Of a DNA stretch of 64,000 bases, positions 21,922 to 42,968 are shown piece after piece (the stretch's first letter is position 1; each line of letters opens with the position of its first letter). Origin of the DNA: Nonomuraea soli (GTDB lineage: Bacteria > Actinomycetota > Actinomycetes > Streptosporangiales > Streptosporangiaceae); assembly GCF_013761175.1 (NCBI RefSeq), contig NZ_JACDUR010000004.1, positions 558,001 through 622,000 on the forward strand. Reading direction: 5' to 3'. The translations under genes were made by a program, and so were the position numbers. The notes under the pieces were generated by a model, which saw only the letters and a list, made by a program, of their open reading frames with translations, was not told where the DNA came from and ran no database searches.

Positions 21922-23502
21922 GTGAAGTTCCGGATCCTGGGATCACTCACCGTCGACGCAGAGGCCGGCCCGGTCGATCTGGGCCCGGCCAAACAACGCA
22001 CGGTCCTGGCGGCGCTGCTGCTGGAGGCCAACCGCATCGTCCCGGTCGACCGCCTGGTGGCGGCGGCCTGGGAAGGTGAGCCGCCACGGTCGGCGGTCGC
22101 CAACGTCCGCACCTACGCCTCCCGATTACGCAAGACGCTCAGGGAGCGCGTCGAGAGCCGCCCGCCCGGCTTCGTCCTCCACGTGGGCGACGACGAGCTG
22201 GACCTGGCCGCCTTCCGCGAGCTGGCCGGACGGGGGCGGGCCGCGCTGGCGGCGGGGCACGACGGCGAGGCGGTCGCCACCCTGGGCGAGGCGCTGTCGT
22301 TGTGGCGGGGCGCCGCCGCCGAGGACCTGAGCCGCTCGGCCGGACTGGAGGCGCCGCTGGCGGCGCTGGACGAGCAGCGGCTGGCGGTGCTGGAGGACTG
22401 GATCGCCGCCAGGCAGCGGCTCGGGCACGACGGGCAGCTGATCGACGAGCTGCGGCGGCTGACCGACACGCATCCGCTGCGCGAGCGGCTGTGGTCGCAG
22501 CTCATCCTGGCCCGCTATCGCGGCGGGGACATCGGGGGCGCACTGGCGGGGTACGCGCAGGCCAGGAACGTGCTGGCGGAGAACCTGGGCGTGGATCCCG
22601 GGCCCGAGCTGGTGCGCATGCACCAGGCGGTGCTCACCCGCGATCCCGCGCTCGACCTGCTCGACACCCACCCGCCGGGACCGCGCCACCCCACTGACTC
22701 CTTCCCCCGCCCCGCCGACGCGCTGGGGCGCTTCGTGGCGCCCGATCGGGCCGCCCCCGACCCCGGTACACGCCAGCACGCGGTGCCGAGGGAACTGCCC
22801 GCCGACACCTCCGTCCTGGTCGGCCGCGACAAGGAGCTCCACCTCCTGCTCGACTCCGTCATCGGCGGCCCCGAGCACGCCCACGGACCCACCGTCCTGG
22901 TCCTGCACGGCCCCGCGGGCATCGGCAAGTCCGTCCTGGCCGTCCGCGCGGCGAGCCTGCTGGCCGAGCACTTCCCCGACGGCCAGCTCTTCGCCGACCT
23001 GCGTGGCACCGCGACGTCCAGGAAACAGCCCCGCAAGGTCCTGGCCGGCTTCCTGCGCTCGCTGGGCGTGCCCGACCGGCGCATCCCCGACGACGAGGAC
23101 GAGACCGCCGCCCGCTACCGCTCCATCACCGCCGACCGCCGGCTGCTCATCCTGCTGGAGGACGCGGCCGACGAGGCACAGGTCAGGCCGCTGGTGCCCG
23201 CCGCTCCCGGCAGCATCGTCGTCATCACCGCCCGCCGCCCGCTGGCCGCCCTCGACGGCGCCGCCCACCTGCACCTGGAGCGCCTGTCGCCGGACGCGGC
23301 CGAGGAACTCCTGGTACGGCTGTGCGGCCCGGAACGGGTGGAGGCCGAGCGCGAGGAGACGCACCGCCTGGCCGCCCGATGCCGCGGGCTGCCGCTGGCG
23401 CTGCGCATCGCCGCCGCCCGTCTCGTCGCCGACCCCCTGCTTCCCGTTTCCGCACTCGGCGACCATCTCGAATACGGAGACCTGACCATTCATCTCTCCT
23501 GA
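21922..23502 (+). CDS. SARP-family (AfsR/DnrI-like) pathway activator with NB-ARC domain
   Basis: The 526-residue product has an OmpR-type winged helix (about 1-90; MKFRILGSLTVDAEAGPVDL start), a bacterial transcriptional activation domain (about 95-240; DLAAFREL, LGVDPGPELVRMHQAVL) and an NB-ARC ATPase with P-loop GPAGIGKS near residues 328-335 and a RCRGLPLALRIAAARL end. It lacks the TPR part of full AfsR. SARPs activate antibiotic gene clusters by binding 11-bp-spaced direct repeats. Such repeats begin at its own stop codon, ahead of the peptide gene. It is the likely pathway-specific activator of the biosynthetic operon. Confidence 0.88.
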   Translation: MKFRILGSLTVDAEAGPVDLGPAKQRTVLAALLLEANRIVPVDRLVAAAWEGEPPRSAVANVRTYASRLRKTLRERVESRPPGFVLHVGDDELDLAAFRELAGRGRAALAAGHDGEAVATLGEALSLWRGAAAEDLSRSAGLEAPLAALDEQRLAVLEDWIAARQRLGHDGQLIDELRRLTDTHPLRERLWSQLILARYRGGDIGGALAGYAQARNVLAENLGVDPGPELVRMHQAVLTRDPALDLLDTHPPGPRHPTDSFPRPADALGRFVAPDRAAPDPGTRQHAVPRELPADTSVLVGRDKELHLLLDSVIGGPEHAHGPTVLVLHGPAGIGKSVLAVRAASLLAEHFPDGQLFADLRGTATSRKQPRKVLAGFLRSLGVPDRRIPDDEDETAARYRSITADRRLLILLEDAADEAQVRPLVPAAPGSIVVITARRPLAALDGAAHLHLERLSPDAAEELLVRLCGPERVEAEREETHRLAARCRGLPLALRIAAARLVADPLLPVSALGDHLEYGDLTIHLS

Positions 23503-23533
23503 TACATCAGCCATACATCGGCGAATGTATGAG
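23502..23533 (+). promoter_or_regulatory. SARP-type direct repeats and -10 of the biosynthetic operon
   Basis: ATACATC at 23502-23508 and ATACATC at 23513-23519 are separated by AGCC, giving the 11-bp period of SARP boxes. Eight bases later TATGAG (23528-23533) fits a -10. This is the box-to-minus-10 spacing described for SARP promoters. The second box also forms an inverted pair with ATGTAT at 23525-23530. A start near 23540 would leave a leader of about 60 bases. Confidence 0.7.
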
Positions 23534-23599
23534 AAATAACGGCCCCCTCGTTAGTGTCGTTTCCGGTTCGGCAGGAACCTGATCGAGAGGAAATCGGAA

Positions 23600-23761
23600 A
23601 TGGCACTGTTGGAAAAGGCGGCCGACCGCCTGCTCTCCGTGGTGGCGCCGAGGAAGGAAGCGGCCGCCGCCTGCAGCCCGTACTGCTGGTGGCAGCAGAT
23701 CTGGGACGGCTGGTACCAGTACTGCTGCAAGTACCCGAACTGCGACGTCGTCTGCCGCTGA
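23600..23761 (+). CDS. Candidate ribosomal precursor peptide with six-cysteine core (53 aa)
   Basis: The 53-residue product begins MALLEKAADRLLSVVAPRKE, an amphipathic leader, followed by AAAAC and a 30-residue core. The core has Cys25, Cys29, Cys42, Cys43, Cys48 and Cys52 and Trp30, Trp31, Trp35 and Trp38, with four Tyr; it has one Ser and no Thr, so lanthionine chemistry is not possible on any scale. Even cysteine number suggests three disulfides. The AAAA stretch suits signal-peptidase cleavage. AGAGG lies 9 bases before the ATG. It is followed by MauE, TlpA, ABC and S26 genes, which suits oxidation, export and cleavage. No homologue is known to me. Confidence 0.8.
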   Translation: MALLEKAADRLLSVVAPRKEAAAACSPYCWWQQIWDGWYQYCCKYPNCDVVCR

Positions 23762-23766
23762 CGTGA

Positions 23767-23806
23767 GGGTTCCGGGGGCGGGCGGCCGGTCCGCCCCCGG
23801 AAACCC
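23767..23806 (+). promoter_or_regulatory. Hairpin between precursor and mauE-like gene
   Basis: GGGTTCCGGGGGCGG pairs with CCGCCCCCGGAAACCC with one bulged base and a 9-base loop. It begins 5 bases after the precursor stop. This is a very stable partial terminator, as often seen after RiPP precursor genes, and should keep precursor mRNA in excess. Confidence 0.8.
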
Positions 23807-23816
23807 GAGGGATGCC

Positions 23817-24323
23817 ATGAATGGTGTAGCAGCGGGTTGTCAATGGGCGCTCGGAATTGTTTTCCTGACGGCCGTGGCCGGTAAGGCGCGCGATTTTCCC
23901 GGATTTCGCGCGTCCCTCTCCTCCATGGCTCCTGGAATGGCGGGCTGGGCTGTTCCCGTCGTCGTGGCGGAAATGTTCACCGCTTTGTCACTGCTGATTC
24001 CCGCGACCAGCCGATGGGGCTTCGCGGCGGCCGTGGCGCTGTCGGCCGGGTTCGCCGTGGTCGTGCTGCGCGCACTGGCCGGGGGGCACCACGAGCCGTG
24101 CCCGTGCTTCGGCGTCAGCGCCAGGCCGCTGGGCCGCAGGCACGTCGTGCGCAACGGGTTGCTGACAGCGCTTGCCCTGGCCGGGCTGGCCGCCGGCGAT
24201 CCAGCGGGACCGGGTGCCGAGGTCTGGCCGGTGGCGGTGCTCGCCGGCGGGTGCGCGGCGGTCCTGCTGATCTTCTTCGACGACCTCGTCGAGCTGTTCC
24301 TCCCTGTCTCCAGGAGTGTGTGA
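23817..24323 (+). CDS. MauE/DoxX-like redox membrane protein
   Basis: The 168-residue product has about four hydrophobic helices and a GGHHEPCPCFG motif near residues 93-103, the paired-Cys motif of MauE-type DoxX proteins. MauE is needed in methylotrophs for the disulfide-rich small subunit of methylamine dehydrogenase, together with MauD. The start at 23817 is preferred over GTG 23763 because it follows a GAGGGATGCC stretch and avoids the hairpin. Its stop overlaps the next ATG (TGATG). By context it passes oxidising or reducing equivalents to the following TlpA-like protein for folding of the six-Cys peptide. Confidence 0.8.
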   Translation: MNGVAAGCQWALGIVFLTAVAGKARDFPGFRASLSSMAPGMAGWAVPVVVAEMFTALSLLIPATSRWGFAAAVALSAGFAVVVLRALAGGHHEPCPCFGVSARPLGRRHVVRNGLLTALALAGLAAGDPAGPGAEVWPVAVLAGGCAAVLLIFFDDLVELFLPVSRSV

Positions 24324-24823
24324 TGGTCTATCTCGTCGTCGTGCTTACCGTGTTGTGCCTGGTCAACCTGCTGCTCACCGTGGGAGTCGTCCGGCGGTTG
24401 CGCGAGCACACCGAGCTGCTGGCCGAGCAGGCGGCCGCGCCGCCACCGCCGTTGCGCCCCGGCACCCGGGTACCGGGCTACGCCGAGCTGACCGGCGCGA
24501 CGGAGGAGAGCGTGATCGGCTTCCTGTCGCCCGGCTGCGAGCCGTGCCGCACCCTGTTGCCCGGCTTCCTGGAGCGCGCGGGCGCCGCCCGCTCCTCCCT
24601 GGCCGTCGTGGTCGGCGGCGCCGATCGCGCCAAGGAGTACACCGACCGGATCACCGGGCCCGTCGAGGTGGCCGTCGAGGAGATGGGCGGCCCCCTGACC
24701 TCGGCCTTCCAGGTCACCGTCTTCCCGACCTTCTTCGTGGTCGCCCCCGACGGCACCGTCCTGGGCAGCGGCAACGGCCTCACCGCGCTGGAGCGGCCCG
24801 CAGAGGCAGGCGCCAGGCCGTGA
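24323..24823 (+). CDS. Membrane-anchored TlpA/MauD-like thioredoxin
   Basis: The 166-residue product has one N-terminal membrane helix (residues 3-23), a proline-rich spacer (PPPP near 40) and a thioredoxin domain with active site C72-E-P-C75 (SPGCEPCR) and the cis-Pro region VFPTFFVVAPDG. It faces outside the membrane. MauE plus MauD pairs help form disulfides, so its likely substrate is the six-Cys peptide. It overlaps the exporter gene by four bases (GTGA). Confidence 0.85.
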   Translation: MVYLVVVLTVLCLVNLLLTVGVVRRLREHTELLAEQAAAPPPPLRPGTRVPGYAELTGATEESVIGFLSPGCEPCRTLLPGFLERAGAARSSLAVVVGGADRAKEYTDRITGPVEVAVEEMGGPLTSAFQVTVFPTFFVVAPDGTVLGSGNGLTALERPAEAGARP

Positions 24824-26619
24824 CCGGGCGCGGGGGGACGAGGCACGCAGCCGCCGAGGCGGCGCGGCTGATCTGGGTGGCGGCGCCCGGCGGGGTGGCG
24901 GCCTTCCTGCTGGTGACGCTGGCGGAGGCGGCGGCTCCGGTGGTCGCCGCGTGGATGCTGAAGCTGACGCTCGACACGCTGGCGGCCGGGGGCGACATCC
25001 TGTGGCCCGCGCTCGCCATGGCCGTCACCGGCCTGGCCTCGGCGACGGCGCCGCAGCTGACCCGCTACCTGTCGGCCGAGCTGGGCAGGCGGGTGGGGGT
25101 GCGCGCCCTCGACCGGCTGTTCACCGCGCTCGACCGGTTCGTGGGGCTGGCACCCTTCGAGGATCCCGCCTTCCTGGACCGGCTGCGGCTGGCCCAGCAG
25201 GGGGCGAGCACGTCGGGGCAGTTCGTGTCGGGCGTGTTCGGCATGGCCAGGGCGGCGGTGTCACTCGTCGGCTTCCTCGCCGCCCTGCTGGTGATCAGCC
25301 CGCTGCTGGCGCTGGTCGTGGCCGTCACGGCGGCACCGGCGTGGTGGGCGGAGCTGACCTTGTCGCGCGGGCGCGCGGCGATGCTCTGGCGCATCACGCC
25401 CAACCAGCGCAAGGAGATCTTCTACAGCCAGCTCCTCGGCAGCGTGGAGGCCGCCAAGGAGATCAGGCTGTTCGGCCTGGGACCGTTCCTGCGCGGGCGC
25501 ATGCTCGGCGAGCGGGACCTGGCGAACGCGGGACAGCGGGCGATGGACCGCAAGGAGCTGGCCGCCCAGGGCGGCCTGGGCCTGCTCGGCGCGTTGGCCG
25601 CGGGCGCCGGGCTGGTCTGGGCGGTCCTCGCCGCGCGGCGCGGCGAGCTGACCGTGGGCGACGTCTCGCTCCTGCTGGCAGCCGTGGCCAGCACCCAGGC
25701 GGCGGCGGGCACCCTGGTGCGCTCGGCCGCCGACACCCACCAGCAGCTGATCATCTTCGGTCACCACACCGCCGTCGTCACGACGGAGCCCGACCTGCCG
25801 CTGCCCGCGCTCCCCACCACGGTCCCGGCCGGAGGGCAGGGCATCGAGCTGCGCGACGTCTGGTTCCGCTACAGCGACGAGCACCCCTGGGTGCTGCGCG
25901 GGGTGAACCTCACCGTCCCGACCGGCCGCGCCGTGGCCCTGGTCGGGCTGAACGGCGCGGGCAAGTCGACGCTGGTCAAGCTGCTGTGCAGGCTCTACGA
26001 CCCGACCAGGGGCACGATCCTGTGGAACGGCGTCGACGTGCGAGAGCTGGACCCGGCCGAACTGCGCGGGCGCATCAGCGCCGTCTTCCAGGACCACATG
26101 GGCTACGACTTCAGCGCCTCCGACAACATCGCGGTCGGGGACCTCACCGCCCACGGCGACCCGGCCAGGATCGGCGCCGCCGCACAACGCGCGGGCGTCC
26201 ACGACCAGCTGATGGCTCTGCCCCAGGGCTACGACACCCCGCTCACCCGCACCTTCGCCGACGGCACGGGCGCCGGGGTGACGCTCTCGGGCGGCCAGTG
26301 GCAGCGGGTCGCCCTGGCCAGAGCCATCCTGCGAGGCGACCGCGACCTCATGATCCTCGACGAGCCCAGCTCCGGGCTCGACCCGCAGGCCGAGCACGAC
26401 GTGCACGAGCGCATGCTGCGCTACCGCGCCGGGCGTACCAGCCTGCTCATCTCCCACCGGCTCAACGCCGTACGGCACGCGGACACGATCGCGGTTCTGG
26501 ACGAGGGGGTCATCGTGGAATCAGGACACCACGACGAGCTGATGGAAGCGGGCGGCGGCTACGCCCGGCTCTTCCACCTGCAGGCGCAGGGCTACCGCGA
26601 CGAGCTGGTGACGCCGTGA
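24820..26619 (+). CDS. ABC exporter, fused membrane and ATPase domains
   Basis: The 599-residue product starts at a GTG overlapping the TlpA stop. It has a six-helix membrane domain (about 1-310) and an ATPase with Walker A GLNGAGKST near 374-382, signature LSGGQWQRV near 489, Walker B LMILDEP near 510 and H-loop SHR. It has no C39 peptidase domain at the N-terminus, unlike class II bacteriocin exporters, so leader removal is done by another protease. The neighbour is an S26 peptidase. It resembles lasso- and lanthipeptide-type exporters (NisT-like). The likely cargo is the precursor peptide or the final product. Confidence 0.88.
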   Translation: MTGRGGTRHAAAEAARLIWVAAPGGVAAFLLVTLAEAAAPVVAAWMLKLTLDTLAAGGDILWPALAMAVTGLASATAPQLTRYLSAELGRRVGVRALDRLFTALDRFVGLAPFEDPAFLDRLRLAQQGASTSGQFVSGVFGMARAAVSLVGFLAALLVISPLLALVVAVTAAPAWWAELTLSRGRAAMLWRITPNQRKEIFYSQLLGSVEAAKEIRLFGLGPFLRGRMLGERDLANAGQRAMDRKELAAQGGLGLLGALAAGAGLVWAVLAARRGELTVGDVSLLLAAVASTQAAAGTLVRSAADTHQQLIIFGHHTAVVTTEPDLPLPALPTTVPAGGQGIELRDVWFRYSDEHPWVLRGVNLTVPTGRAVALVGLNGAGKSTLVKLLCRLYDPTRGTILWNGVDVRELDPAELRGRISAVFQDHMGYDFSASDNIAVGDLTAHGDPARIGAAAQRAGVHDQLMALPQGYDTPLTRTFADGTGAGVTLSGGQWQRVALARAILRGDRDLMILDEPSSGLDPQAEHDVHERMLRYRAGRTSLLISHRLNAVRHADTIAVLDEGVIVESGHHDELMEAGGGYARLFHLQAQGYRDELVTP

Positions 26620-27044
26620 CCGCGGCGTGGATCGCCCTGGCCGCGGCCCTGCCCGCGGGGCTGGTGTGGTGGATCAGGAGCCGCTTCGTCGTCGTCACCG
26701 TCAACGGTGGCAGCATGCGGCCCACCTACGAGCCGGGCGACCGGGTGCTGGTGCGCCGGGTGGCGGCCGAGCGGGTCAAGGCGGGCGACGTGGTGCTGAT
26801 GGCCAGCGCCGCCCCGGTGCTGCGCGGCGGTGAGGGGCTCGGGCTGGTCAAGCGCGCGCTGGCCGTACCGGGGGATCCGGTGCCGCGCGAGCGGGTGCCC
26901 GCGCTGGCCGGCGCCCGCGAGCACACCGTGCCGCCGGGACGGGTGGTGCTGGTCGGCGACCATCCGGGCAGCGACGACTCGCGTCAGTACGGCTACTTCC
27001 CGCTGGCCGACCTGCTCGGCGTCGTCGTCAGGAAGTTGCCGTGA
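26616..27044 (+). CDS. S26-family signal peptidase
   Basis: The 142-residue product has one N-terminal membrane helix (about 2-20), the box B serine motif NGGSMRP (Ser33) and the lysine of box D in GLVKRALAVPGD (Lys79), then VPPGRVVLVGDHPGSDDSRQYGYFP (boxes E). Ser/Lys dyad is intact. It is shorter than housekeeping LepB (about 250 or more residues) and lacks the C-terminal catalytic extension region of Gram-negative forms. It lies between the exporter and NRPS genes with GTGA overlaps on both sides, so its likely substrate is the peptide leader. Confidence 0.85.
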   Translation: MTAAWIALAAALPAGLVWWIRSRFVVVTVNGGSMRPTYEPGDRVLVRRVAAERVKAGDVVLMASAAPVLRGGEGLGLVKRALAVPGDPVPRERVPALAGAREHTVPPGRVVLVGDHPGSDDSRQYGYFPLADLLGVVVRKLP

Positions 27045-28357
27045 GCGGGCGCAGCGGCGGGCTGACCTGGGCGCAGCGCGAGTGGTTCATGTGGGTGCCT
27101 CCCGGTTCGCCCAACGCCTTCGAGGCCAACCAGACGTGCGTGTCGCCCGGCTACGGCGCGGGGCTCGACCACGTGATCACCGCCGTGCGCGACGTGCTCG
27201 CCCGGCACGAAGGCCTGCGCACACTCGTCAGCCGCGAGCCCGGTCACGCGTCAGGGGAACTGCGCCAGCACGTGCAGGAGGTCGACGAGCGGCTGGCCGA
27301 CGTCATCCGCGTCCACCGCGACGGCGGCGAGCTCGGCCAGGCCGCGTGGCACCCCTTCGACCTGACGGCCGAGTGGCCCGTCAGGGTGCACGTGTTCACC
27401 GCCGGGCGCCGGGTGCGCAGGATCGCCCTGGTGCTCGACCACTCGGCCGTGGACGCCTGGGCGATCCGGGTGCTCTGCTCCGACCTGGCCGCCGCGATCA
27501 GGGCGCGGTCCTCCGGGCTCGAGCCGTACGGCCCGCGCGAGGTGGAGCAGCCGATCGACGCCGCCGGCTGGGAGGCCTCGCCGCAGGGCCGCGCGCACCA
27601 GGCGCGGGCGGAGCGGTTCTGGCACGCCAGGCTCACCGACCTGCGCGGACGGCTCGACGGCCACCGGGCCAGGCCCAGGGCGAGCCGGAGCCTGTCCGCC
27701 GAGCCGTACCACTCGTGCAGGCTGGCCTCCGGACGGCTGGCCGGGGCGGCGACGGCGCTCTCGGCGGCGAGCGGGTTGCCCGTCGCCTCCGTCTACCTGG
27801 CGGCGTTCGGCGTGAGCGTGCGGCGGGCCGAGGAGGCGCCGGCCGCCGGAGTCTTCGCCTTCACCGCCAACCGGCTGAGCCCGGGCGCCAAGGCCTCGGT
27901 ACGCAAGGCCGTCATGCACGCGCCCGTCGTCGTCGGCGACGGCGGCCTGAGCGACGAGCTGCACGGATGCGCGGCGCAGCAGCTGCACGGGCACCGCTTC
28001 GCCAACCTCGACCCGCGCGAGTCGACCCGGATGTGCGACGAGCTGCTCGGCGGCCACCACAGGACCGGGGTGGCGTACGCGCGCTTCAACTACATCGACG
28101 ACACGGTGGTGGGGCCGCTGGCCAACAGCCGGTCGCTCGACGAGGAGGCGATCCGCTACCAGGACCCGGCCGAGCAGGAGCGCCTGTTCCACCGCCGGCC
28201 GCGCGGGGACGGCGCGGAGTACCAGCTGACCGTGCAGCACAGCACGGCGGGCGCGCTGCTGACGCTGGCCTGGCGCGAGGACACCGGCTGGGGCGAGCAG
28301 GCCGAGGACATGCTGCGCGGCCTGGCCGAGCTGGTGGTGGGGGAGGCGTCGCGATGA
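27041..28357 (+). CDS. Stand-alone condensation-domain protein with altered active site
   Basis: The 438-residue product is a single NRPS condensation fold. The HHxxxDG motif reads D133-H134-S-A-V-D138-A139: the catalytic second His and the Asp remain, the first His is Asp and the Gly is Ala. The N-terminal LTWAQREWFMW motif matches C1 loosely. It may be an active, divergent C domain or a structural partner. Its GTG overlaps the signal peptidase stop, and its stop overlaps the adenylation gene; this ties the ribosomal and nonribosomal halves of the operon. Confidence 0.7.
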   Translation: MSGRSGGLTWAQREWFMWVPPGSPNAFEANQTCVSPGYGAGLDHVITAVRDVLARHEGLRTLVSREPGHASGELRQHVQEVDERLADVIRVHRDGGELGQAAWHPFDLTAEWPVRVHVFTAGRRVRRIALVLDHSAVDAWAIRVLCSDLAAAIRARSSGLEPYGPREVEQPIDAAGWEASPQGRAHQARAERFWHARLTDLRGRLDGHRARPRASRSLSAEPYHSCRLASGRLAGAATALSAASGLPVASVYLAAFGVSVRRAEEAPAAGVFAFTANRLSPGAKASVRKAVMHAPVVVGDGGLSDELHGCAAQQLHGHRFANLDPRESTRMCDELLGGHHRTGVAYARFNYIDDTVVGPLANSRSLDEEAIRYQDPAEQERLFHRRPRGDGAEYQLTVQHSTAGALLTLAWREDTGWGEQAEDMLRGLAELVVGEASR

Positions 28358-29829
28358 GCACCACGACGCGGCTGCTCGCGGCCCGCGCCGCCGAGAATCC
28401 CGACGGCCCGGCGCTCGTGCTGCACGGGGTCGGCGAGCTCACCCACGGCGGGTGGCAGGAACGCGCGCTGGCCGCCGCTCGCGGCCTCGTGGCGCGGGGG
28501 CTGCGGCCGGGCGAGCGGGTCGGCCTGCGGTACGGCGGGGCGGGATGGCTCGACTACGCGGTCGCCTTCCTGGCGGTCCACCACGCGGGCGGCGTGGCGG
28601 TGCCGCTGCCCGCCCACCTGAGAGAAGCCGAGCTCACCCGCCTCCTGGAGGACTGCGGCGCCACCGCGCTCCTCCACGACAGCCCAGCCATTGCGCTCCC
28701 GCACGACACTTCGGCCATCGCCACTCTTGGACCGCTCCGATGGCAGGCGGAGCTGGCCGAACTCGACGGGACCTGCGCCGCGCTGCCTCGCCCGCCGTCG
28801 CCCGGTGACCTGGCGCAGATCCTCTACACCTCGGGCACCACCGGCAGGCCCAAGGGCGTGGCGGCCACCCACGCCAACCTCGCCTGGGGCAGGGGCGGCC
28901 GCAGGCGGCCCTTCGCCCACTCCAGGCACCTCGTCCACGCCTTCCCGATCGGCACCAACGCCGGCCAGATCATGCTCATGAACGCCCTCGACGCCCACCC
29001 GGCGGTGGTCACGCTGCCCGCCTTCACGCCGGTGCGCTTCGCCAGGCTCATCGAGCGCTACGCGGCGGGCACCGTCTTCGTCGTGCCCGCGATGGCCGTC
29101 GAGTTGCTCGACTCCGGCGCGCACCAGCGCTTCGACCTGACGAGCGTCCTGCTGCTCGGCTCGGCCGCGGCCCCGCTGCCCGAGGCGGTCTGCGCCCGGC
29201 TGGCCAGGGCGCTGCCGCGGGCGACGATCACCAACTACTACACCTCGACCGAGGCCGCGCCCGCCCAGACCGTCATGATGTACGACCCGGGCAGGCCGGG
29301 CAGCGTCGGCCGGGCCGTCGCGGGCGGCCAGGTCAGGATCGCCACCGCCGACGGCGAGCCGCTGCCCGCGGGCGAGACGGGCGAGGTGTGGCTGCGCTCG
29401 CCCGCCGTTCCGCGCGCCTACTACGGCGATCCGGAGTCGACACGCGGCGTCTTCCGCGACGGCTGGATCCGCATGGGCGACCTGGGCCGCATCGACGCCG
29501 ACGGCTACCTCTACCTCGCCGACCGGGCGGGCGACGTGGTCAAGTCGGGCGGCTTCAAGGTCTCCACGCTCCACGTCGAGGAGGCCGTCTACCAGCACGC
29601 CGACGTCGTCGAGGCGGCGGTGGTCGGGGTGCCGCACCCGGTTCTGGGCACGCAGCTGGCCGCCGCGGTGGTGCTGCGCGCCCCGCTGCCGCCCGAGGAT
29701 CTGCGGGCCTTCCTGGCAGGACGGCTGGCCCCGCACGAGTTGCCGGCACGCGTGGTGGAGCTGGAACGCCTGCCACGCAACGCCGGCGGCAAGGTCGACA
29801 AGCACGCGCTCCGCAGGAGGCTGGGATGA
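28354..29829 (+). CDS. Free-standing acyl-adenylating enzyme (AMP-binding)
   Basis: The 491-residue product has A-domain core motifs: ILYTSGTTGRPKGVAATH (A3), NYYTSTEAA (A5), GEVWLRSPAVPRAYYGDPEST (A6), GWIRMGDLGRIDADGYLYLADR (A7-A8) and NAGGKVDKHAL with the A10 Lys. The position of the amino-acid-binding Asp (A4) reads FPIGTNAGQ and lacks Asp, so a carboxylic acid without an alpha-amino group is more likely than an amino acid. No carrier domain is fused. It probably loads the PCP at 29826 or the ACP at 34191. It overlaps its neighbours by 4 bases. Confidence 0.85.
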   Translation: MSTTTRLLAARAAENPDGPALVLHGVGELTHGGWQERALAAARGLVARGLRPGERVGLRYGGAGWLDYAVAFLAVHHAGGVAVPLPAHLREAELTRLLEDCGATALLHDSPAIALPHDTSAIATLGPLRWQAELAELDGTCAALPRPPSPGDLAQILYTSGTTGRPKGVAATHANLAWGRGGRRRPFAHSRHLVHAFPIGTNAGQIMLMNALDAHPAVVTLPAFTPVRFARLIERYAAGTVFVVPAMAVELLDSGAHQRFDLTSVLLLGSAAAPLPEAVCARLARALPRATITNYYTSTEAAPAQTVMMYDPGRPGSVGRAVAGGQVRIATADGEPLPAGETGEVWLRSPAVPRAYYGDPESTRGVFRDGWIRMGDLGRIDADGYLYLADRAGDVVKSGGFKVSTLHVEEAVYQHADVVEAAVVGVPHPVLGTQLAAAVVLRAPLPPEDLRAFLAGRLAPHELPARVVELERLPRNAGGKVDKHALRRRLG

Positions 29830-31265
29830 GTCAGGCATCGTTCGTGCAGCACGGGATGTGGGTCATGCGAGGCGCCGGTGCCGCCTACCACATGCCGATG
29901 CTCGTGGAGTTACCCGGCGAGGCCGACCCCGGCGTGCTGGCCAAGGCGTGCGCCGCGGTGGCCGAGCGCCACCCGCTGCTGTCCAGCGCGCTGCGCGAGC
30001 AGGACGGCGTGGCCGTGATCGTCCCCGCGGCCCGGCCGTCCGAGCTGCGCGTGGCCGGTCCGGGCGACAGCGTGGAGGACGACATCGCCCGCCCGTTCGA
30101 CCTCGGCACCGGGCCGCTGGTGCGCTTCACCCTGTTCGCGCCGCGCACCCTGCTGGTGACCGCCCACCACGTCGCCTTCGACGGGCACTCCAAGGACCTG
30201 CTGCTGCGCGACCTGCTGTCCGCCTACGACGGCGTGGTCCAGGATCCGCCCGCCACCGGATTCTCCGAGCTCGCCGAGGCGGAACGCGAGCGGGTGGCGC
30301 GAGCCCTGCCCGAGGCCCGCGCCTTCTGGCGGCCGCGCTGGAGCGAGCCGGTGCCGGTGATGGTCGCCGGGCACCTGCTGAGCTCGCGCGCGTCAGGGCC
30401 GGGACAGGTCCTGGCCTTCGAGCTGCCCAGGGTCGAGCTCGACGGGCTCACCGTCTTCGAGACCACGCTCGCCGCGCTGCACGCGCTGCTGTTCCTGTAC
30501 GGCAACAGCCGGGTCGGCACCGCCGTGGACCTGTCCACCCGGCGCCCCGAGAGCGCCGAGGTGATCGGCCCGTTCGTCAATGAGCTCCCCGTGGAGTCAC
30601 GCCCGTCGGCCGACCTGCCCTTTCACCGCTTCGCCGGATCGTTGCGCGCCGAGTGCCGGGCGATCTACCGGCATCGGGAGGTGCCGCTGGCCCGCGCGCT
30701 GCCGGGGCTGCGCCCGCACGCCGCGCTCGCGCCCGTCTCGCTCAGCTACCGCAGGCGGCAGCCGTACCACGGGACCGCCGCGGTGGACTGGCTGGTGCAC
30801 AACGGCGCGGTGCGGGGAGAGCTGCAGCTGCAGCTCGTCGACGACGGCGCCTCCCTGACGGCGAGCCTGCGCTGCTCGGCTCGTGCCGCCGCCGTGGCGG
30901 GCGAGCTGGCCGCGCACCTGCGTGCCGTACTGGAGCAGGTCGCGGCCACGCCGCAGGTGGCGCTCGGCGAGCTGGCCGAACCCGCCACGGAACACCTCAC
31001 GCAGGCCGCCGCGCCCGAGCCGCGGGCTCCGGCCGGACCCGTCGACGAGGAACTGGCCGGGCGGCTGCGCGCGATCTGGGAGGAGGTCCTGCAGATCTCG
31101 CCGATCGGCCTGCACGACGACCTGTTCGACCTGGGCGGCCACTCGCTGACCGTCACCCAGATCATCGCCCGCATGCACGGGCAGCTCGGCATCGAGGTAC
31201 CGCTCGACCTGTTCTTCGACAACCCCACCATCGCCGGAGTGCTCGATGAACTGCGCACCCGCTGA
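29826..31265 (+). CDS. Condensation-peptidyl carrier (C-PCP) didomain protein
   Basis: The 479-residue product has an intact condensation motif H114-H115-V-A-F-D119-G120 and a C-terminal carrier domain with the phosphopantetheine Ser440 in LGGHSLTV. The middle has the usual VDLSTRRPESAEVIGPFVNELPV latch-like region. It may be loaded in trans by the free A enzyme upstream and condense its unit with another carrier-bound acyl group. The next gene starts 20 bases before its stop. Confidence 0.85.
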   Translation: MSQASFVQHGMWVMRGAGAAYHMPMLVELPGEADPGVLAKACAAVAERHPLLSSALREQDGVAVIVPAARPSELRVAGPGDSVEDDIARPFDLGTGPLVRFTLFAPRTLLVTAHHVAFDGHSKDLLLRDLLSAYDGVVQDPPATGFSELAEAERERVARALPEARAFWRPRWSEPVPVMVAGHLLSSRASGPGQVLAFELPRVELDGLTVFETTLAALHALLFLYGNSRVGTAVDLSTRRPESAEVIGPFVNELPVESRPSADLPFHRFAGSLRAECRAIYRHREVPLARALPGLRPHAALAPVSLSYRRRQPYHGTAAVDWLVHNGAVRGELQLQLVDDGASLTASLRCSARAAAVAGELAAHLRAVLEQVAATPQVALGELAEPATEHLTQAAAPEPRAPAGPVDEELAGRLRAIWEEVLQISPIGLHDDLFDLGGHSLTVTQIIARMHGQLGIEVPLDLFFDNPTIAGVLDELRTR

Positions 31266-34451: not shown

Positions 34452-35721
34452 CCGGGCGGCGATCGTGGGCGCGGGCCTGGCGGGCTCGCTGCTGGCGCTG
34501 TTCCTGGCCCGTCGCGGCCACCGGGTGGAGGTCTTCGAGCGGCGGGGCGACCCGCGCGCGATCGGATGCGAGGAGGGCCGCTCGATCAATCTGGGACTGT
34601 CGGCGCGCGGCATCCGCGCGTTGCGGCTGGCAGGGTTGTGGGAGCGCGTCAGGGCCGTGTCGGTGCCCATGCGCGGGCGTATGGTGCACCCGCCCTCCGG
34701 CCCGCCCTTCTTTCAGCCCTACGGACGTGACCCCGGCCAGATCCTCTACTCGATCCGCCGCGACGCTCTCAGCTCGATCCTCATCGACCAGGCCGAGAAG
34801 CAGCCCGACGTGCGCTTCTTCTTCGACGCCCAGGTCAGCGGCATCGACAGGGAGTCGCCCGCGCTCACCGTCTCCGGCCGGGGCCGCGTCGAGGCCGACT
34901 TCGTCGTCGGCGCGGACGGCGTCTCCTCCCTGGTACGGCGGGCCGTGCCCGGCGGCGTGCGCACCGACGTGCTCGAATGGGGGTACAAGGAGCTGCACCT
35001 GCCGGAGACCGACCGGCCGCAGGCGCTGCACGTGTGGCCGGGCGAGGGCGCGCTCATGGTCGCCCACCCCAACCTCGACGGCTCGCTGACCTGCACGGCC
35101 TTCCTGCCCCATGACGTCATCGCCGCACTGCCGGGCTGCCGCGCGATCGAGGCCTTCTTCGACCGGGTCCTGCCCGGCGCGAGGGAGCTCGTCCCCGACC
35201 TGGCCGGCCAGTTCGCCGCCGCGCCCGCAGGACAGCTCACCACCGTCAGGGCCACGAGCTGGCACCACGCCGACCGCCTGGTCCTCGTCGGCGACGCCTG
35301 CCACGCCGTCTACCCCTTCTACGGCCAGGGCATGAACTCCTCGCTGGAGGACTGCGTCGTCCTGGAGGAGTGCCTGGCCCGCCATCCAGGCGACCGCCTG
35401 GCCGCCTTCGCCGACTACCAGCGGCTGCGCAAACCGCACACCGACGTGCTCGCCGACCTGTCGGCCGACAACTTCCTGGAGCTGCGCGACCGGCTGCGCT
35501 CACCGCTGCACCTGGCGCGCAAGCACGCCGACGTGGTGCTCAACCGGCTCTTCCCCCGGCACTGGCAGCCGCTCTACACGATGATCTCGCACACCACCAT
35601 GCCGTACGGCCAGGCGCTGCGCCGGGCCCGCCGCCAGGACGCCGTGCTGCGTGCCGCCGCCGGGGCGGGACTCCTGGCGGGCGCCGCCCTGGTCATGCGC
35701 GGAAGGGCGGCCAGGACGTGA
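34444..35721 (+). CDS. Kynurenine 3-monooxygenase-like flavoprotein
   Basis: The 425-residue product has the KMO family motifs: IVGAGLAGSLLALFLARRG for FAD, GRSINLGLSARG, ILYSIRRDALSSIL, FVVGADGVSS, WGYKELHLP, FYGQGMNSSLEDC and, near the C-terminus, TMISHTTMPYGQA. A hydrophobic C-terminal tail near 400-420 matches the membrane-associated end of KMO. Known KMOs hydroxylate L-kynurenine with NADPH and O2; here no other kynurenine pathway gene is seen, so the substrate may be different or carrier-bound. GTG start, 8-base overlap with ACP. Confidence 0.85.
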   Translation: MADRAAIVGAGLAGSLLALFLARRGHRVEVFERRGDPRAIGCEEGRSINLGLSARGIRALRLAGLWERVRAVSVPMRGRMVHPPSGPPFFQPYGRDPGQILYSIRRDALSSILIDQAEKQPDVRFFFDAQVSGIDRESPALTVSGRGRVEADFVVGADGVSSLVRRAVPGGVRTDVLEWGYKELHLPETDRPQALHVWPGEGALMVAHPNLDGSLTCTAFLPHDVIAALPGCRAIEAFFDRVLPGARELVPDLAGQFAAAPAGQLTTVRATSWHHADRLVLVGDACHAVYPFYGQGMNSSLEDCVVLEECLARHPGDRLAAFADYQRLRKPHTDVLADLSADNFLELRDRLRSPLHLARKHADVVLNRLFPRHWQPLYTMISHTTMPYGQALRRARRQDAVLRAAAGAGLLAGAALVMRGRAART

Positions 35722-36362
35722 TCATCCATCCTGACGACCCCGCCCTGCGCCTGGTCGAGGTGGGCACGCTGGAAGAGCTGGCCGAGCCGTACAGGGACGC
35801 CGCCGCGCGGGTGGCCGCGTGGGCGCGCGAGTTCCTGTGCCGCCCGCACCCCGAGCTGGGCCGCCGCGGGCCCGTCTGCCCGTACGCGCAGGGCTCCATC
35901 GACCGGGGCCGGTTCTACCTGGCGGTACGGCCCGGCGTTCCGTCGTCGGCCGCCGAGGTGGTGCGCGCGCTGGAGCCGTACCGGGCCTGGTTCGCCGACC
36001 TCGCCCCGCGCGAGAAACCCGACTCCCTGCACACGGCGGTGCTGGTGCTCTTCCCCGACGCCGGCGACCGGCTCGACCTCATCGACGGCGCGCAGCAGGA
36101 GCTGAAGGACGCCTACGTGCCCGACGGGCTGATGATCGGCGAGTTCCACCCGGGGCCGCCGGACAAGGGCGGCCTGTGGAACCCCGACCTGCGCCCGCTG
36201 GCCGCCCCCGTGCCGATGCTGGTCATCAGGCACATGGTCGCCACCGACCTGCCCTTCCTGGCGGGGGACGCCGCCCACCTGCGCGCCTACCGGCGGCTGC
36301 ACGGCGAAGCGGGGCAGCGGCGCGTTCCGGAACATCTGCGAGAGGCGGTGGCCGAGCGGTGA
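35718..36362 (+). CDS. DUF6875-like protein of unknown function
   Basis: The 214-residue product has a conserved LCRPHPELGRRGPVCPYAQ motif at about 38-56 with two cysteines and a His, and a PVPMLVIRHMVATDLPFL stretch toward the end. It is probably the DUF6875 family, named from memory. Such proteins occur in actinomycete secondary metabolism. The Cys/His motif may bind a metal or a cofactor. It lies between the flavoenzyme and the NRPS with GTGA overlaps on both sides, so it is part of the pathway. The function is not known. Confidence 0.6.
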   Translation: MIIHPDDPALRLVEVGTLEELAEPYRDAAARVAAWAREFLCRPHPELGRRGPVCPYAQGSIDRGRFYLAVRPGVPSSAAEVVRALEPYRAWFADLAPREKPDSLHTAVLVLFPDAGDRLDLIDGAQQELKDAYVPDGLMIGEFHPGPPDKGGLWNPDLRPLAAPVPMLVIRHMVATDLPFLAGDAAHLRAYRRLHGEAGQRRVPEHLREAVAER

Positions 36363-39300: not shown

Positions 39301-40513
39301 AAGGGAGCTGGGGGCGCGGCTGCCGATCGCGGCCCTGTTCGCCGCCCGCGACCTGGCGACCCTGGCGGCCTCCCTGACTTCGAACGGACCCGCCTCGACC
39401 CGGGTTGGACCCGACTCGGACCGGGTCGGACCCGACTCGGACCGGGCCGAGCTCGCCGCCGACCTGGTGGTGCCCGCCGACATCCGGCCGGGCCCGAGCC
39501 GTACGGGACCTCCGCGCCGGATCCTGCTCACCGGCGCCACCGGCTTCCTCGGCCCGCACGTCCTGGAGGAGCTGTCGCGCCACGACGGCCTCCGCGTGCG
39601 ATGCCTCACCCTCGACGGAACCGCACCCGGCGGCACCGAGGCGGTGCGCGGCGACCTGACCCGCCCGCTGCTCGGCCTGCCGCCCTCGGCGTTCGAGGAA
39701 CTGGCCGAGGAGACGGACCTCGTCGTCCATCTGGCCAGGCAGGTCAGCTTCGTCCTGCCGTACGGGCGGCTGCGCGCGGTGAACGTCACGGGCATGGCCG
39801 GGATCCTGCGCCTGGCCGCGACGGGACCGGTCACCCCCGTGCACACCGTCTCGACCCTCGGCGTGTTCCTCGGCCACCCCGGCACCGTCACCGAGCGCAG
39901 CGTTCCCGGCGAACCCCGGTCGGGCGGCTACTACCTGAGCCGGTGGGCGGGCGAGCGGCTGGCGATCACCGCCGGGGAGCGGGGGCTGCCCGTCACCCTG
40001 CACCGGCCCGCCCGCGTGGGGCCGCACAGCCGCACCGGCCGGTGGAGTCCCGGCGACCACCTGGCCCGCATGATCATCGCGTCGGCCCAACTGGGTCTCG
40101 TCCCCGACCTGGCACACGAGGAGGACCTGTTGCCCGCCGACCACCTGGCCCAGGCCGTCGTACGGCACGCGCTGGCCGGCTCTACGGCCACGTTGCACCA
40201 CTTCAACGGGCTGACGGTCGGCTACCCGCAGATCGCCGCCGTCCTCACCCAGGCGGGCGCGCCCGTCGACCTCGTCCCCTGGCACACCTGGCTGGCAGCC
40301 GCCCGTGGCCGTACCGACCTGGCCGTCACCCCGCTGCTGCCGTCGTTCACCGACGAGCCGCCGCCGGCACGACGCCCCCGGTTCGACTGCCGCGCCACCC
40401 TGGCGGCCACCGGCCTGCCCGGCCCGCCGTCCGCCCGCGACCTGCTCGCCCTCGCGGTCGAGCGGTTCGCCGCGGACGGCCTCCTGGAGCGGGTCCCGTC
40501 ATGCCGGGGCTGA
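36359..40513 (+). CDS. Nonribosomal peptide synthetase, C-A-PCP-reductase
   Basis: The 1384-residue product has a condensation domain (about 1-430; H131-H132-L-A-C-D136-G137), an adenylation domain (about 450-925; YTSGSTGRPKG at 587-597, NHYGPTEATVCA), a carrier domain (Ser970 in GGHSLLAAS) and a terminal SDR-type reductase (from about 1050; TGATGFLG at 1058-1065). The reductase YxxxK site reads Y1191-Y-L-S-R1195, so the usual Lys is Arg. By-eye A-domain code is D-A-G-D-M-G-H-V-C; the leading Asp fits an amino acid, but I cannot name it. C-A-PCP-R proteins release aldehydes or alcohols, as in pyrrolobenzodiazepine NRPSs. The start is GTG 36359. Confidence 0.9.
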   Translation: MTTVVLSPEQERLWFLQQAGLGGEAYLVWAAHRLSGALDVPLLGQAVGALVERHPALRTAVAAGADGRPEGRVCPAVDVPFEVAPPATEEEARQLVDAFVAEPFSLARAPLVRVLLVPLGEGEHILALAAHHLACDGPSLEVLVDELYRLYGGETLPPPPAVSPQPGDPEAERAYWRERLAGAPAVLDLPLDRPRQDRPGSRGARHVLPLPQELVDGLAVAAKETRTSAFMLVLAAVAVVLGRFADEEDVVVGSPVSNREHPGAVGMFVNTLALRADLGGDPTLGELVRQVRRTVLGALTHRRLPFDEVVELSGVARDLRHNPLFQVMLVVDLPGEGVRDVPGLEVAPYALPAPAARFDLTVVASLGATGTLAFDYAAELFDEATVARMAEHLVSVLGALAGERDRRLGELTFPGSAPSTWPHGAFAAVEPVHEQFARRAAADPLAPALIGDGPPLAYGTLERRANHLAHRLRALGVTAGETVAVLLPAGADALVAILGVLRAGGAYVPLDPGQPAARLADLIADAGCRAVIEAEIGAAIGAEIGGDNGAEIGAAIGGEAGTAITVDDREAAHPPPPAAADLAYVIYTSGSTGRPKGVAVTHDSLARLTEAFRDVHDCFAPGQRVLMIPPLTFDASAGDLFPALTGGAALVVHPDPAELDGPGLVDFCARHGVTAVDTASALWRKWTEELGPVPADWPVTTMMVGGERVPADSLRAWARKTGGKIAFYNHYGPTEATVCATVHRTVDGGDTAVSLPIGRPLPHVRAHVLDRHGRRVPTGVRGELHLGGPCLARGYVGSPELTRAAFVPDPFSGGLMYRTGDLVRQDADGVLHFLGRADRQIKLRGRRIEPGEVESALAAHPAVRDSAVVARDELLIAYVTGHRTGDLRDFLRERLPGHLVPAAFVWMDTIPLTAHGKVDEAALPAPVLGAAVYEPPSGRIERVLAGIWERRLGAERVGRHDGFFEAGGHSLLAASVVADIERELGARLPIAALFAARDLATLAASLTSNGPASTRVGPDSDRVGPDSDRAELAADLVVPADIRPGPSRTGPPRRILLTGATGFLGPHVLEELSRHDGLRVRCLTLDGTAPGGTEAVRGDLTRPLLGLPPSAFEELAEETDLVVHLARQVSFVLPYGRLRAVNVTGMAGILRLAATGPVTPVHTVSTLGVFLGHPGTVTERSVPGEPRSGGYYLSRWAGERLAITAGERGLPVTLHRPARVGPHSRTGRWSPGDHLARMIIASAQLGLVPDLAHEEDLLPADHLAQAVVRHALAGSTATLHHFNGLTVGYPQIAAVLTQAGAPVDLVPWHTWLAAARGRTDLAVTPLLPSFTDEPPPARRPRFDCRATLAATGLPGPPSARDLLALAVERFAADGLLERVPSCRG
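37958..38029 (+). repeat. 24-bp in-frame repeat in NRPS adenylation domain, 3 units
   Basis: Units at 37958, 37982 and 38006 begin GCCGAGATCGGG and encode 8-residue blocks (AEIGAAIG, AEIGGDNG, AEIGAAIG). They fall between motifs A2 and A3, probably a loop before the ATP-binding motif. The reading frame stays open. Confidence 0.85.
39401..39442 (+). repeat. 21-bp in-frame repeat in carrier-to-reductase linker
   Basis: Two units (39401-39421, 39422-39442), differing by one base, each encode RVGPDSD. They lengthen the flexible linker between the PCP and the terminal reductase. Confidence 0.85.
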
Positions 40514-41814
40514 GCGTGCGGCGCTTCGCCGGGATCTGGACGGCCGAGCTGGTGTCGGTGATCGGCTCCAGCCTGACCGCGTTCGTGCTGAGCGTCTGGG
40601 TCTACCAGGAGTCGGGCTCGGAGACGCAGTTCGCCCTGAACATGCTCTGCGCCACCCTGCCCGGCCTGCTGATCACCCCGTTCGCCGGGGTGATCGTCGA
40701 CCGTTTCGACCGCCGCGCCGTGCTGCTCCTGGCCGACGCCGGGGCGGCGGCCGTCACCCTGGTGCTGGCCGTCCTGGCGCACACCGGGCACCTGCAGGTC
40801 TGGCACGTCTACCCGGCCACCGTGGTCGCCGCCGTCTGCGGCACCTTCCACCTGACCGTCTACCAGGCGATGACGCCCCTGCTCGTGCCGGAACGCCACC
40901 TCGGCCGGGCCAACGGGCTGCTGCAGACCACGTTCGCGCTGCAGATCGCCGCCCCCGTCCTCGCCGGGACGCTGATGGAGGCGGTGGGACTGCGCGGGGT
41001 GTTCCTGCTCGACCTGCTGTCGTTCGCCGTCGTCGCGTGCGTGGTGGCGTCGACCCGGCTGCCGCGGTCGATCCTGCGTCCCGCCGAGCACGCCGTGCCG
41101 CCCTCGTTCGGGGCCGACCTGACCTTCGGGTTCGCCCGGCTGCGAGCAGGCGGGCTGCTGCCGCTGGTGGCCGCCTTCGCGGCCTTCAACTTCGTGTTCG
41201 CCGTCGCCGGGGTGCTGATCAGGCCGCTCATCCTGTCGTTCGCCACGCCCGCGACGCTCGGTCTGCTGGTGTTCGCCGGCGGAGCCGGGCTGTTCGCGGG
41301 CAGCCTGGTCATGGGCGCGTGGGGCGGGCCGCGGCGCAAGGTCGCCGGGGCGGGGGTCTTCATGCTGCTGGGCTCCGTCGCCCTGGCCGGGCACGCACTG
41401 CGGCCCTCCGTGCTGCTGATCGCGGTGGTGGCGCCCGCGTTCCTGTTCACGATCCCGATCGTGAACGCCTGCCTCACCACCGTGCTGCAGAGCCGTACGG
41501 AGGCCGCGGCGCAGGGGAGGGTGCTGGCCTCCGCCCGCACCGTCAGCCAGCTCGCCGTGCCGCTCGCGTACCTGATCGCGGCGCCGCTGGCCGAGCACGT
41601 GATGGCGCCCGCGCTTCTGCCCGGCGGGGCGCTGGCCGGGGTGCTCGGCGGGGTGCTGGGCACCGGGGAGGGACGGGGCATCGCGCTGGTCTTCCTCGCC
41701 GACGGGGTGCTGCTGCTCGTGGCCGGGGCGGCGACGCTGCTGCTGCCCAGGCTGCGCCGCCTCGACACCACCGCGCCCCCCACCGGCCACCCCGCCCCCG
41801 CCCTCAACCGCTGA
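40501..41814 (+). CDS. MFS exporter (EntS-like)
   Basis: The 437-residue product has about 12 membrane helices and the MFS_3 pattern (FAGIWTAELVSVIGSSLTAFVLSVWVYQESGSETQF; VIVDRFDRRAVLLLAD in the second loop) known from enterobactin exporter EntS and related product exporters. It starts 13 bases inside the NRPS end, so it is the last of the overlapping genes. It is a likely efflux pump for the nonribosomal product. Confidence 0.85.
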   Translation: MPGLSVRRFAGIWTAELVSVIGSSLTAFVLSVWVYQESGSETQFALNMLCATLPGLLITPFAGVIVDRFDRRAVLLLADAGAAAVTLVLAVLAHTGHLQVWHVYPATVVAAVCGTFHLTVYQAMTPLLVPERHLGRANGLLQTTFALQIAAPVLAGTLMEAVGLRGVFLLDLLSFAVVACVVASTRLPRSILRPAEHAVPPSFGADLTFGFARLRAGGLLPLVAAFAAFNFVFAVAGVLIRPLILSFATPATLGLLVFAGGAGLFAGSLVMGAWGGPRRKVAGAGVFMLLGSVALAGHALRPSVLLIAVVAPAFLFTIPIVNACLTTVLQSRTEAAAQGRVLASARTVSQLAVPLAYLIAAPLAEHVMAPALLPGGALAGVLGGVLGTGEGRGIALVFLADGVLLLVAGAATLLLPRLRRLDTTAPPTGHPAPALNR

Positions 41815-41866
41815 CCACCCGCCCGCAGCCTCCTGCGGCGCCCAGATCTGTCTCGTTCCCCCGTCC

Positions 41867-41950
41867 CGAGAGCGCACGACGCCATGCCCCTGCACCTGAC
41901 CCCCGAATCTCGAGAGCGCACGACGCCATGCCCCTGCACCTGACCCCCGA
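41867..41950 (+). repeat. 40-bp direct repeat duplicating the methyltransferase start
   Basis: Copies at 41867-41906 and 41911-41950 (44-base period) both contain CGAGAGCGCACGACGCC, then ATG and the first codons. Only the second ATG (41928) leads into the gene. The first (41884) opens a 19-codon frame that ends within the second copy. Confidence 0.9.
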
Positions 41951-42968
41951 CGACGCCGCGCCGTACCTCGACGGACGCGCGCCCGGCGCGCACCTCGACG
42001 TGATCGGCGCCATGACCGTGCACGCCGTCGCCGCGGCGCTGCGCCTGGGCGTCTTCGCCGCCCTGGGCGCCCCGGCCGACGCGCCCACCCTCGCGCGCAC
42101 CCTCGACGCCGACCCCGCCGCCCTCACCGTCCTGCTCGACGTGCTGGTCGCGACCGGCTACCTCGCCCGCGAAGGCCCCCGCTACCGGCTCACGCCGCTC
42201 GCCGGAACCCTGGACTGGTACGGCGACAGCCTGCTGTTCTGGCACGAGGTGACCGGCGAGCTGTGGAGCGGCCTGACCGAGTCGATCCGCGGCGGCGGCC
42301 GCGGCGCCGACTTCTACACCTGGCTCGGCGACCGCCCCGAGGCCCGCTCCCGCTTCGAGACCATCCTGTACGGCCAGGCCGACTGGCTCAGCACCGAGAT
42401 CGTCACCCTGGCGCCCCCGCCACCCGGCGCCACGCGGCTGCTCGACCTCGGCGGCGGCCATGCCCGCTACAGCCTCGCCTACTGCGCCGCCCACCCCCGC
42501 CTGCACGCCACCGTCGCCGACCTGCCCGCCGCCCTGGATGCGGGGATGTCCGCCGCCAAGCAGGCCGGGCTCGACGAGCGTGTCACCTTCGACGGCCGCG
42601 ACCTCACGGCCGCACTGCCGTACCGGGACCAGGACTGCGTCCTGCTCTTCAACCTCCTGCACGGCTTCCCGGCCGCCCGGGCCCGCGCCCTGGTGGCCGC
42701 CGCCGCCGGGACGTTGCGCCCCGGCGGCCGCCTGATCATCCTGGAACGCGACCCCGACCGCGCGGCCGACCCGGTGACCGGCGCGTTCAGCCGCCTGTTC
42801 GCGCTCAACCTGCACCACACCCAGGGCGGAACCCTGCACACCCTCGCCGACCTGGCGGCCTGGGCGCGGGAGTGCGGCCTGACGGAGCCGGGCGTCGCCG
42901 ACCTCACCCGGTCGCCGGCCCACCGGCTCCTGATCGCCGATCTGCCGCCCGGAACTCCTCGGCCGTGA
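41928..42968 (+). CDS. SAM-dependent methyltransferase, O-methyltransferase family 2 type
   Basis: The 346-residue product has an N-terminal winged-helix dimerisation region (HAVAAALRLGVFAALG; DVLVATGYLAREGPRYRLTPLA) and a SAM fold with motif I LLDLGGGHARYS and FNLLHGFPAARAR, LRPGGRLIILERD. Family members methylate phenolic oxygens or sometimes carbon. With the KMO-like enzyme upstream, an aromatic substrate is likely. The gap to the exporter gene is 113 bases and includes the duplicated start region, so coupling to the operon is less certain. The end overlaps the convergent GNAT gene by 65 bases. Confidence 0.85.
   Translation: MPLHLTPDDAAPYLDGRAPGAHLDVIGAMTVHAVAAALRLGVFAALGAPADAPTLARTLDADPAALTVLLDVLVATGYLAREGPRYRLTPLAGTLDWYGDSLLFWHEVTGELWSGLTESIRGGGRGADFYTWLGDRPEARSRFETILYGQADWLSTEIVTLAPPPPGATRLLDLGGGHARYSLAYCAAHPRLHATVADLPAALDAGMSAAKQAGLDERVTFDGRDLTAALPYRDQDCVLLFNLLHGFPAARARALVAAAAGTLRPGGRLIILERDPDRAADPVTGAFSRLFALNLHHTQGGTLHTLADLAAWARECGLTEPGVADLTRSPAHRLLIADLPPGTPRP

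Follow-up and report, generated by a model that had tools for sequence, protein, structure and literature searches.

Indications of a composite operon joining a Cys-rich peptide cassette to a nonribosomal peptide synthetase locus in Nonomuraea soli

Background

Three candidate families of ribosomally synthesized and post-translationally modified peptides (RiPPs) that carry mauE, one of them together with mauD, are described for Streptomyces in passages of the decRiPPter study (PMC7794033). There, MauE and MauD are proposed to modify an adjacent Cys-rich precursor containing at least 8 Cys. In the passages concerned these families are uncharacterised, and any cluster that overlapped a non-RiPP pathway had been removed by filtering. 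On the nonribosomal side, passages of PMC9570651 describe the nonribosomal peptide synthetases (NRPSs) of pyrrolobenzodiazepine and tetrahydroisoquinoline pathways as short NRPSs ending in C-A-PCP-RE. The DUF6875 family is cited as heme tryptophan oxidases ('cytochrome P422') in parts of a 2026 paper (PMC13307353), and AglA is presented in passages of PMC12866846 as a YqcI/YcgG heme N-hydroxylase. Our analysis concerns a 64,000-nucleotide window of Nonomuraea soli (GCF_013761175.1, NZ_JACDUR010000004.1:558001-622000; own genome G000, contig C4), in which a string of genes combines a peptide cassette with an NRPS gene set. We regard it as likely that this string is a composite operon of two pathways, probably read as one transcript and yielding two products under common control. 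This reading builds on the gene content, the overlaps between the genes, the separability of both halves in the relatives examined and a conserved adenylation pocket.

The peptide half resembles the mauE/mauD families, as far as the cited passages describe them, in placing a MauE-like protein beside a Cys-rich precursor, and differs from them in that its precursor has 6 Cys as opposed to at least 8. With the DUF6875 enzymes of the cited parts of PMC13307353 the NRPS half shares a PF21780 score over the cut-off and a methyltransferase gene in the cluster, as in zig. It differs by its KMO-like partner and an NRPS of the reductive-release type, and tryptophan oxidation is here a prediction. A short NRPS with a C-A-PCP-R end is shared with the pyrrolobenzodiazepine and tetrahydroisoquinoline systems in the passages of PMC9570651. 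A KMO-type enzyme is a further feature in common with pyrrolobenzodiazepine pathways, whereas the E1/E2/ACP set and DUF6875 distinguish the window cluster. Beyond the decRiPPter and zigralone papers, titles and abstract openings of the literature on the cassette, the NRPS gene set, RiPP-NRPS hybrids or DUF6875/P422 contained no description of this operon, and passages of a review gave no account of E1/E2-ACP acyl supply.

Results and discussion

Gene string and junctions

All cluster genes between 21922 and 42968 are located on the plus strand (Table 1). From the MauE gene to the end of the MFS gene, fifteen genes follow each other and 14 out of 14 junctions overlap by 1-20 bp, given the chosen start codons. 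The initial annotation had correctly described these overlaps but counted fifteen genes from 24323, where there are fourteen; MauE at 23817 is the fifteenth. Alternative starts from our simple in-house gene caller are 32124 for E1 beta, resulting in a 2-bp gap, and 23973 for MauE. In the rest of the window, overlaps are seen in 6 of the 29 pairs of adjacent same-strand genes. The O-methyltransferase gene (41928-42968), which starts 113 bp past the MFS end and also follows MFS in relatives, is probably an operon member too. Because of the gene order and the lack of any intergenic space between the S26 and C genes, co-expression of both halves seems likely, and a shared upstream promoter would be the simplest reading of this unusual gene string.

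The GTGA junction of S26 and C had initially been considered the strongest evidence that both halves belong together. The 4-bp overlap is present, but its weight as an indication of a functional link is reduced, since such overlaps are routine in a paralogous cluster on contig C2 of the same genome (all 10 junctions between C-PCP and MFS, nine by 4 bp) and dense overlaps also occur inside peptide cassettes at other loci. We therefore no longer take this overlap to prove that the halves are functionally linked.

Alternatively, the two halves may be plain neighbours, with the NRPS genes transcribed mainly from an internal promoter and an incidental S26 overlap. Overlaps are common in such operons, and Nonomuraea genomes differ at this chromosomal site. 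Yet no intergenic space exists from TlpA to MFS, save the possible 2-bp gap before E1 beta, and about 240 bp precede the related C gene in G250:C20, none here. The initial annotation had named a transcription start or terminator between 26616 and 27041 as evidence against its reading. A scan limited to the sigma-70 consensus and terminator-like sites found none in this interval, although such a scan is weakly informative in this genome. We consider this alternative unlikely.

Table 1. Features of the gene string in the window, with overlaps to the following gene
Feature	Coordinates	Strand	Overlap with next gene (bp)	Evidence and remarks
BTAD/NB-ARC regulator (SARP/AfsR-like, 526 aa)	21922..23502	+		Pfam BTAD 133 bits, NB-ARC 44 bits
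Precursor peptide, 53 aa	23600..23761	+		leader ..ADRLLSVVAP..AAA, then six-Cys, four-Trp core
G+C hairpin, precursor-MauE interval	23767..23806	+		-39.8 kcal/mol, z -3.3
MauE-like membrane protein	23817..24323	+	1	Pfam MauE PF07291, 78.9 bits
TlpA/MauD-like membrane-anchored thioredoxin-like protein	24323..24823	+	4	CEPC motif in sequence; no Pfam match
ABC exporter	24820..26619	+	4	Pfam ABC_tran 102 bits; no C39 peptidase domain from Pfam
Signal peptidase S26 (presumed leader peptidase)	26616..27044	+	4	Pfam Peptidase_S26 66 bits
Stand-alone condensation protein (C)	27041..28357	+	4	Pfam Condensation 43 bits; DHxxxD instead of HHxxxDG
Stand-alone adenylation/acyl-CoA-ligase-like enzyme (A)	28354..29829	+	4	Pfam AMP-binding 214 bits
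C-PCP didomain	29826..31265	+	20	Pfam Condensation, PP-binding
2-oxoacid dehydrogenase E1 alpha	31246..32121	+	4	Pfam E1_dh 127 bits
2-oxoacid dehydrogenase E1 beta	32118..33083	+	8	Pfam Transket_pyr, Transketolase_C; alternative start 32124
E2 with lipoyl lysine	33076..34194	+	4	Pfam 2-oxoacid_dh, Biotin_lipoyl; DHRxxNG for DHRxxDG
Acyl carrier protein (ACP)	34191..34451	+	8	Pfam PP-binding 28 bits
Kynurenine 3-monooxygenase (KMO)-like FAD enzyme	34444..35721	+	4	ten top PDB sequence matches all KMO
DUF6875 heme-oxygenase-like protein	35718..36362	+	4	Pfam PF21780 212.5 bits vs cut-off 24.5
NRPS C-A-PCP-R, 1384 aa	36359..40513	+	13	Pfam
MFS exporter	40501..41814	+		Pfam MFS_1 85 bits
O-methyltransferase, final gene of NRPS block	41928..42968	+		Pfam Methyltransf_2, Dimerisation

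Separate occurrence of the two halves

Both halves were found apart from each other in the relatives examined. None of the 38 NRPS stretches contained a match to the precursor, MauE, TlpA or S26, and NRPS-half genes were absent from the stretches around all 17 other precursor matches in the genus. These stretches are of limited length and partly redundant (overlapping pieces, duplicates), and 3 of the loci are from the N. soli genome itself. Separate occurrence in most relatives, with two unrelated products, had been named in advance as the observation that would speak against a single system, and at the level of sequence the modules indeed occur apart in the relatives examined. Furthermore, every operon gene can be assigned to either the peptide or the NRPS module, and none was recognised as a dedicated joining enzyme. 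Pfam scanning of the 18 cluster proteins supported the domain names given initially, except that neither the precursor nor the TlpA-like protein had a Pfam match.

The initial annotation had left open whether both halves form one hybrid product or the peptide is a separate, co-regulated product. In a hybrid, an NRPS-derived acyl group or a tryptophan-derived aldehyde would be attached to the six-Cys peptide, either by the stand-alone DHxxxD condensation protein or by reaction of the released aldehyde with a peptide amine. One overlapping string with its module boundary precisely at S26/C would agree with this, as would a four-Trp core peptide that shares its operon with oxidases of the tryptophan/kynurenine type. 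Against it, the genes of each module are found elsewhere without the other module, Pfam recognised no peptide ligase among the cluster proteins, each half comes with an exporter of its own, and the precursor of locus L007 likewise has four core Trp with no NRPS gene detected, in a stretch of only 3.5 kb. We judge a hybrid very improbable; if it were true, such a ribosomal-nonribosomal conjugate would imply a hidden joining role for the C domain or the released aldehyde. Since the halves are complete alone, have an exporter each and leave no recognised joining gene, a shared molecule is not indicated, and the separate, co-regulated peptide is favoured.

The peptide half

When 54 Nonomuraea genomes were searched for the precursor, 13 of them (own included) gave matches at E <=0.01, mostly weak ones. 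Around 15 of the 17 other matches at least one precursor, MauE, TlpA or S26 match was detected, and around 13 of the 17 a TlpA match. At six loci (L084, L087, L088, L093, L096, L098) the order regulator, precursor, TlpA, ABC, S26 is kept on one strand, followed by unrelated genes after S26. MauE lies within the cassette string at L085 and near or separate from it at others. At L085 (3610-12450) the cassette is situated between two putative glycogen-metabolism genes, an identity that we assume from their N-termini, and this may hint at cassette mobility.

From TlpA and precursor loci, including 30 TlpA loci scanned earlier, 32 leader-bearing Cys-rich peptides were collected (own included), after 3-4 chance open reading frames had been dropped by eye and near-duplicates removed. 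They share a leader DRLL..(V/A)P...AxA, a count that is not independent because the scan pattern favours DRLL-type leaders, and a core with 6-12 Cys. The window cassette has the features of this Streptosporangiaceae Cys-rich peptide cassette, namely an AxA leader end, a Cys-rich core and adjoining TlpA, ABC and S26 genes. We infer a recurring family of putatively disulfide-rich, secreted peptides equipped with their own export and cutting machinery. TlpA-like homologues were detected in 166 of the 297 genomes of the order.

Relatives of the regulator are located directly 5' of precursor genes at several other loci. The window regulator stops after NB-ARC at 526 aa, compared with about 870-930 aa for full-length cassette-side regulators; shorter regulator matches in the stretches are fragments or clipped at stretch ends.

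The 53-codon peptide gene followed by a hairpin was confirmed, and the hairpin is more stable in folding than 199 out of 200 shuffled sequences. As the stretches 3' of 7 other precursors range from z -0.9 to -4.5 and the region is G+C-rich, we dropped the view that this hairpin is unusual by its strength alone.

Searching 5.8 billion proteins with the precursor revealed one relative, 94% identical, on a 60,745-bp contig of Nonomuraea sp. NPDC050663. The protein clusters of the N. soli C and DUF6875 proteins comprise two contigs each, as would be expected if that strain had the fusion too.

The NRPS half

The NRPS half contains a recurring core of [KMO]-DUF6875-(C-A-PCP-R)-MFS-OMT, OMT being the O-methyltransferase. 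Within 20 DUF6875 loci, picked mostly by high rank from 69 rows with no random draw and including 3 from the N. soli genome, C-A-PCP-R and MFS were present in 19 each and OMT and KMO in 18 each; L150 lacked all four. The in-house caller used for relatives overlooked DUF6875 at L146 along with certain small genes. Of the order's 297 genomes, 53 gave DUF6875 matches, 51 of which exceed the cut-off; N. soli has four copies, and 14 control genomes have none.

With pocket positions placed by hand according to motif rules, the adenylation pocket of C-A-PCP-R reads DAGD(M/V/L)(V/I/A)HVC in 22 out of 22 distinct proteins, own and L135 included. All 11 other NRPS proteins yielding a code at the same loci differ (e.g. 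DILQ..., DMPQ...; duplicates removed). The near-invariant pocket, together with the differing codes nearby, suggests one common substrate.

The paralogous C2 cluster comprises E2, E1 beta, E1 alpha, A, C-PCP, ACP, an MbtH-like small protein and three further NRPS proteins, then C, KMO, DUF6875, C-A-PCP-R, MFS and OMT. At G231:C3 the set is E2, E1 beta, E1 alpha, A, C-PCP, ACP, C, KMO, DUF6875, OMT, MFS and C-A-PCP-R. Neither has peptide genes, and in both the C protein is no more than 28-32% alike to that of the window. The DHxxxD motif was present in 69 out of 69 aligned C proteins (own included). E1 alpha relatives are frequent in the order (92 of 297 genomes at E 1e-60). The catalytic motif of 2-oxoacid dehydrogenase E2 acyltransferases is DHRxxDG; here 5 out of 5 E2 proteins have DHRxxNG.

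The best PDB match of the KMO-like enzyme is 5y66 (E 4.5e-83). It has the KMO sequence and FAD motif, and its R, Y, N and Y align at positions which we take to be kynurenine contacts. By its sequence, the enzyme is KMO-like and predicted to hydroxylate kynurenine. KMO-type hydroxylation belongs to pyrrolobenzodiazepine pathways. Kynureninase was not found by Pfam among the scanned cluster proteins. In DUF6875, the candidate heme-ligand residue Cys54 is invariant in 38 of 38 proteins. The structural model of DUF6875 appears to resemble the heme hydroxylase AglA, and the DUF6875 profile gave a single chance-level match against PDB sequences.

QhpG acts on tryptophan of a peptide subunit. In a similar manner, the KMO-like and DUF6875 enzymes might oxidise tryptophans of the window peptide, for which its Trp-rich core and a weak match of the KMO-like protein to the QhpG model (E 6e-15, far under the cut-off) could be adduced. 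However, KMO and DUF6875 occur together in 18 of the 20 DUF6875 loci without peptide-cassette matches, the top matches are true KMOs, and the presumed kynurenine contacts align. This idea seems to us even less credible than the hybrid. The Trp-rich core was also dropped as a sign of modification by oxidases, given the four Trp in the L007 core.

Several sequence features of the NRPS half were recorded in addition. A perfect 44-bp tandem duplication (41867-41950) spans the O-methyltransferase start codon. The C-A-PCP-R gene contains a 12-bp tandem array within its adenylation domain (37952-38034) and a 21-bp array in the PCP-R linker (39385-39446). The YxxxK motif of its reductase domain (39926-39943) is YYLSR here and AYYLSR in G250, with K in most relatives.

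Chromosomal site and history

Strong relatives of C were found in ten other genomes of the 297. Across the class, a search at E 1e-40 detected C in 1 of 394 genomes, the N. soli genome itself, while a protein search does list Dactylosporangium and Hamadaea relatives. The amylase operon, which ends at 21809 in the window, is followed in G188 and G172 two genes on by C on the minus and A on the plus strand. The same two intervening genes lie beside C in G182, G084 and G155, and in G148 and G060 C adjoins a gene homologous to that at 11274 in the window. Percentages in this flank comparison, from which G160 and G170 were excluded, cover only genes found by the caller. Because most of the checked C relatives share one chromosomal neighbourhood, the NRPS locus may have been resident there for long, with the peptide cassette as a newcomer placed in front of it later; few genomes bear on this. 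In 7 of 10 other Nonomuraea amylase loci a gene homologous to that at 47621 in the window is reached after 1-5 called genes, and the stretch 21809-47621 (21.9-47.6 kb) therefore has the appearance of an island whose site varies from one Nonomuraea genome to another.

Several observations weigh against this history or against two merely co-regulated pathways. In G250:C20, the closest C relative, none of these neighbours was found. The NRPS genes at the amylase operon of G188 and G172 reach a likeness of only 45% for C and 56% for A and gave no DUF6875 match in the order-wide search, so that the site conservation concerns C and A and not the whole pathway. The amylase locus L165 fits the island pattern with a homologue of the window gene at 56804 instead of 47621, and 2 of the 10 loci (L158, L159) do not fit it. 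Finally, if the fusion were shared by distant species, the halves may be more than neighbours.

Proposed mechanism and implications

For the composite operon we propose that the BTAD regulator would switch on a single transcript. The ABC protein would carry the 53-aa precursor out of the cell, S26 would remove its leader behind AxA, and the six Cys of the core would be oxidised with MauE and the TlpA-like protein, while the hairpin may favour precursor mRNA over the downstream message. DUF6875, presumably with heme, the KMO-like flavoenzyme and the O-methyltransferase could provide an oxidised, methylated tryptophan- or kynurenine-type unit. This unit would be loaded by C-A-PCP-R and released as an aldehyde or imine, with E1/E2/ACP, A and C-PCP supplying an acyl partner and MFS exporting the nonribosomal product.

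Both halves are little known: the peptide family on the one hand, and on the other an NRPS core with a heme enzyme family only recently tied to tryptophan oxidation. The four paralogous DUF6875 clusters of N. soli make a common building block testable. Two antibiotic-like pathways behind one switch, if true, would represent a natural pathway fusion, possibly delivering cooperating compounds together.

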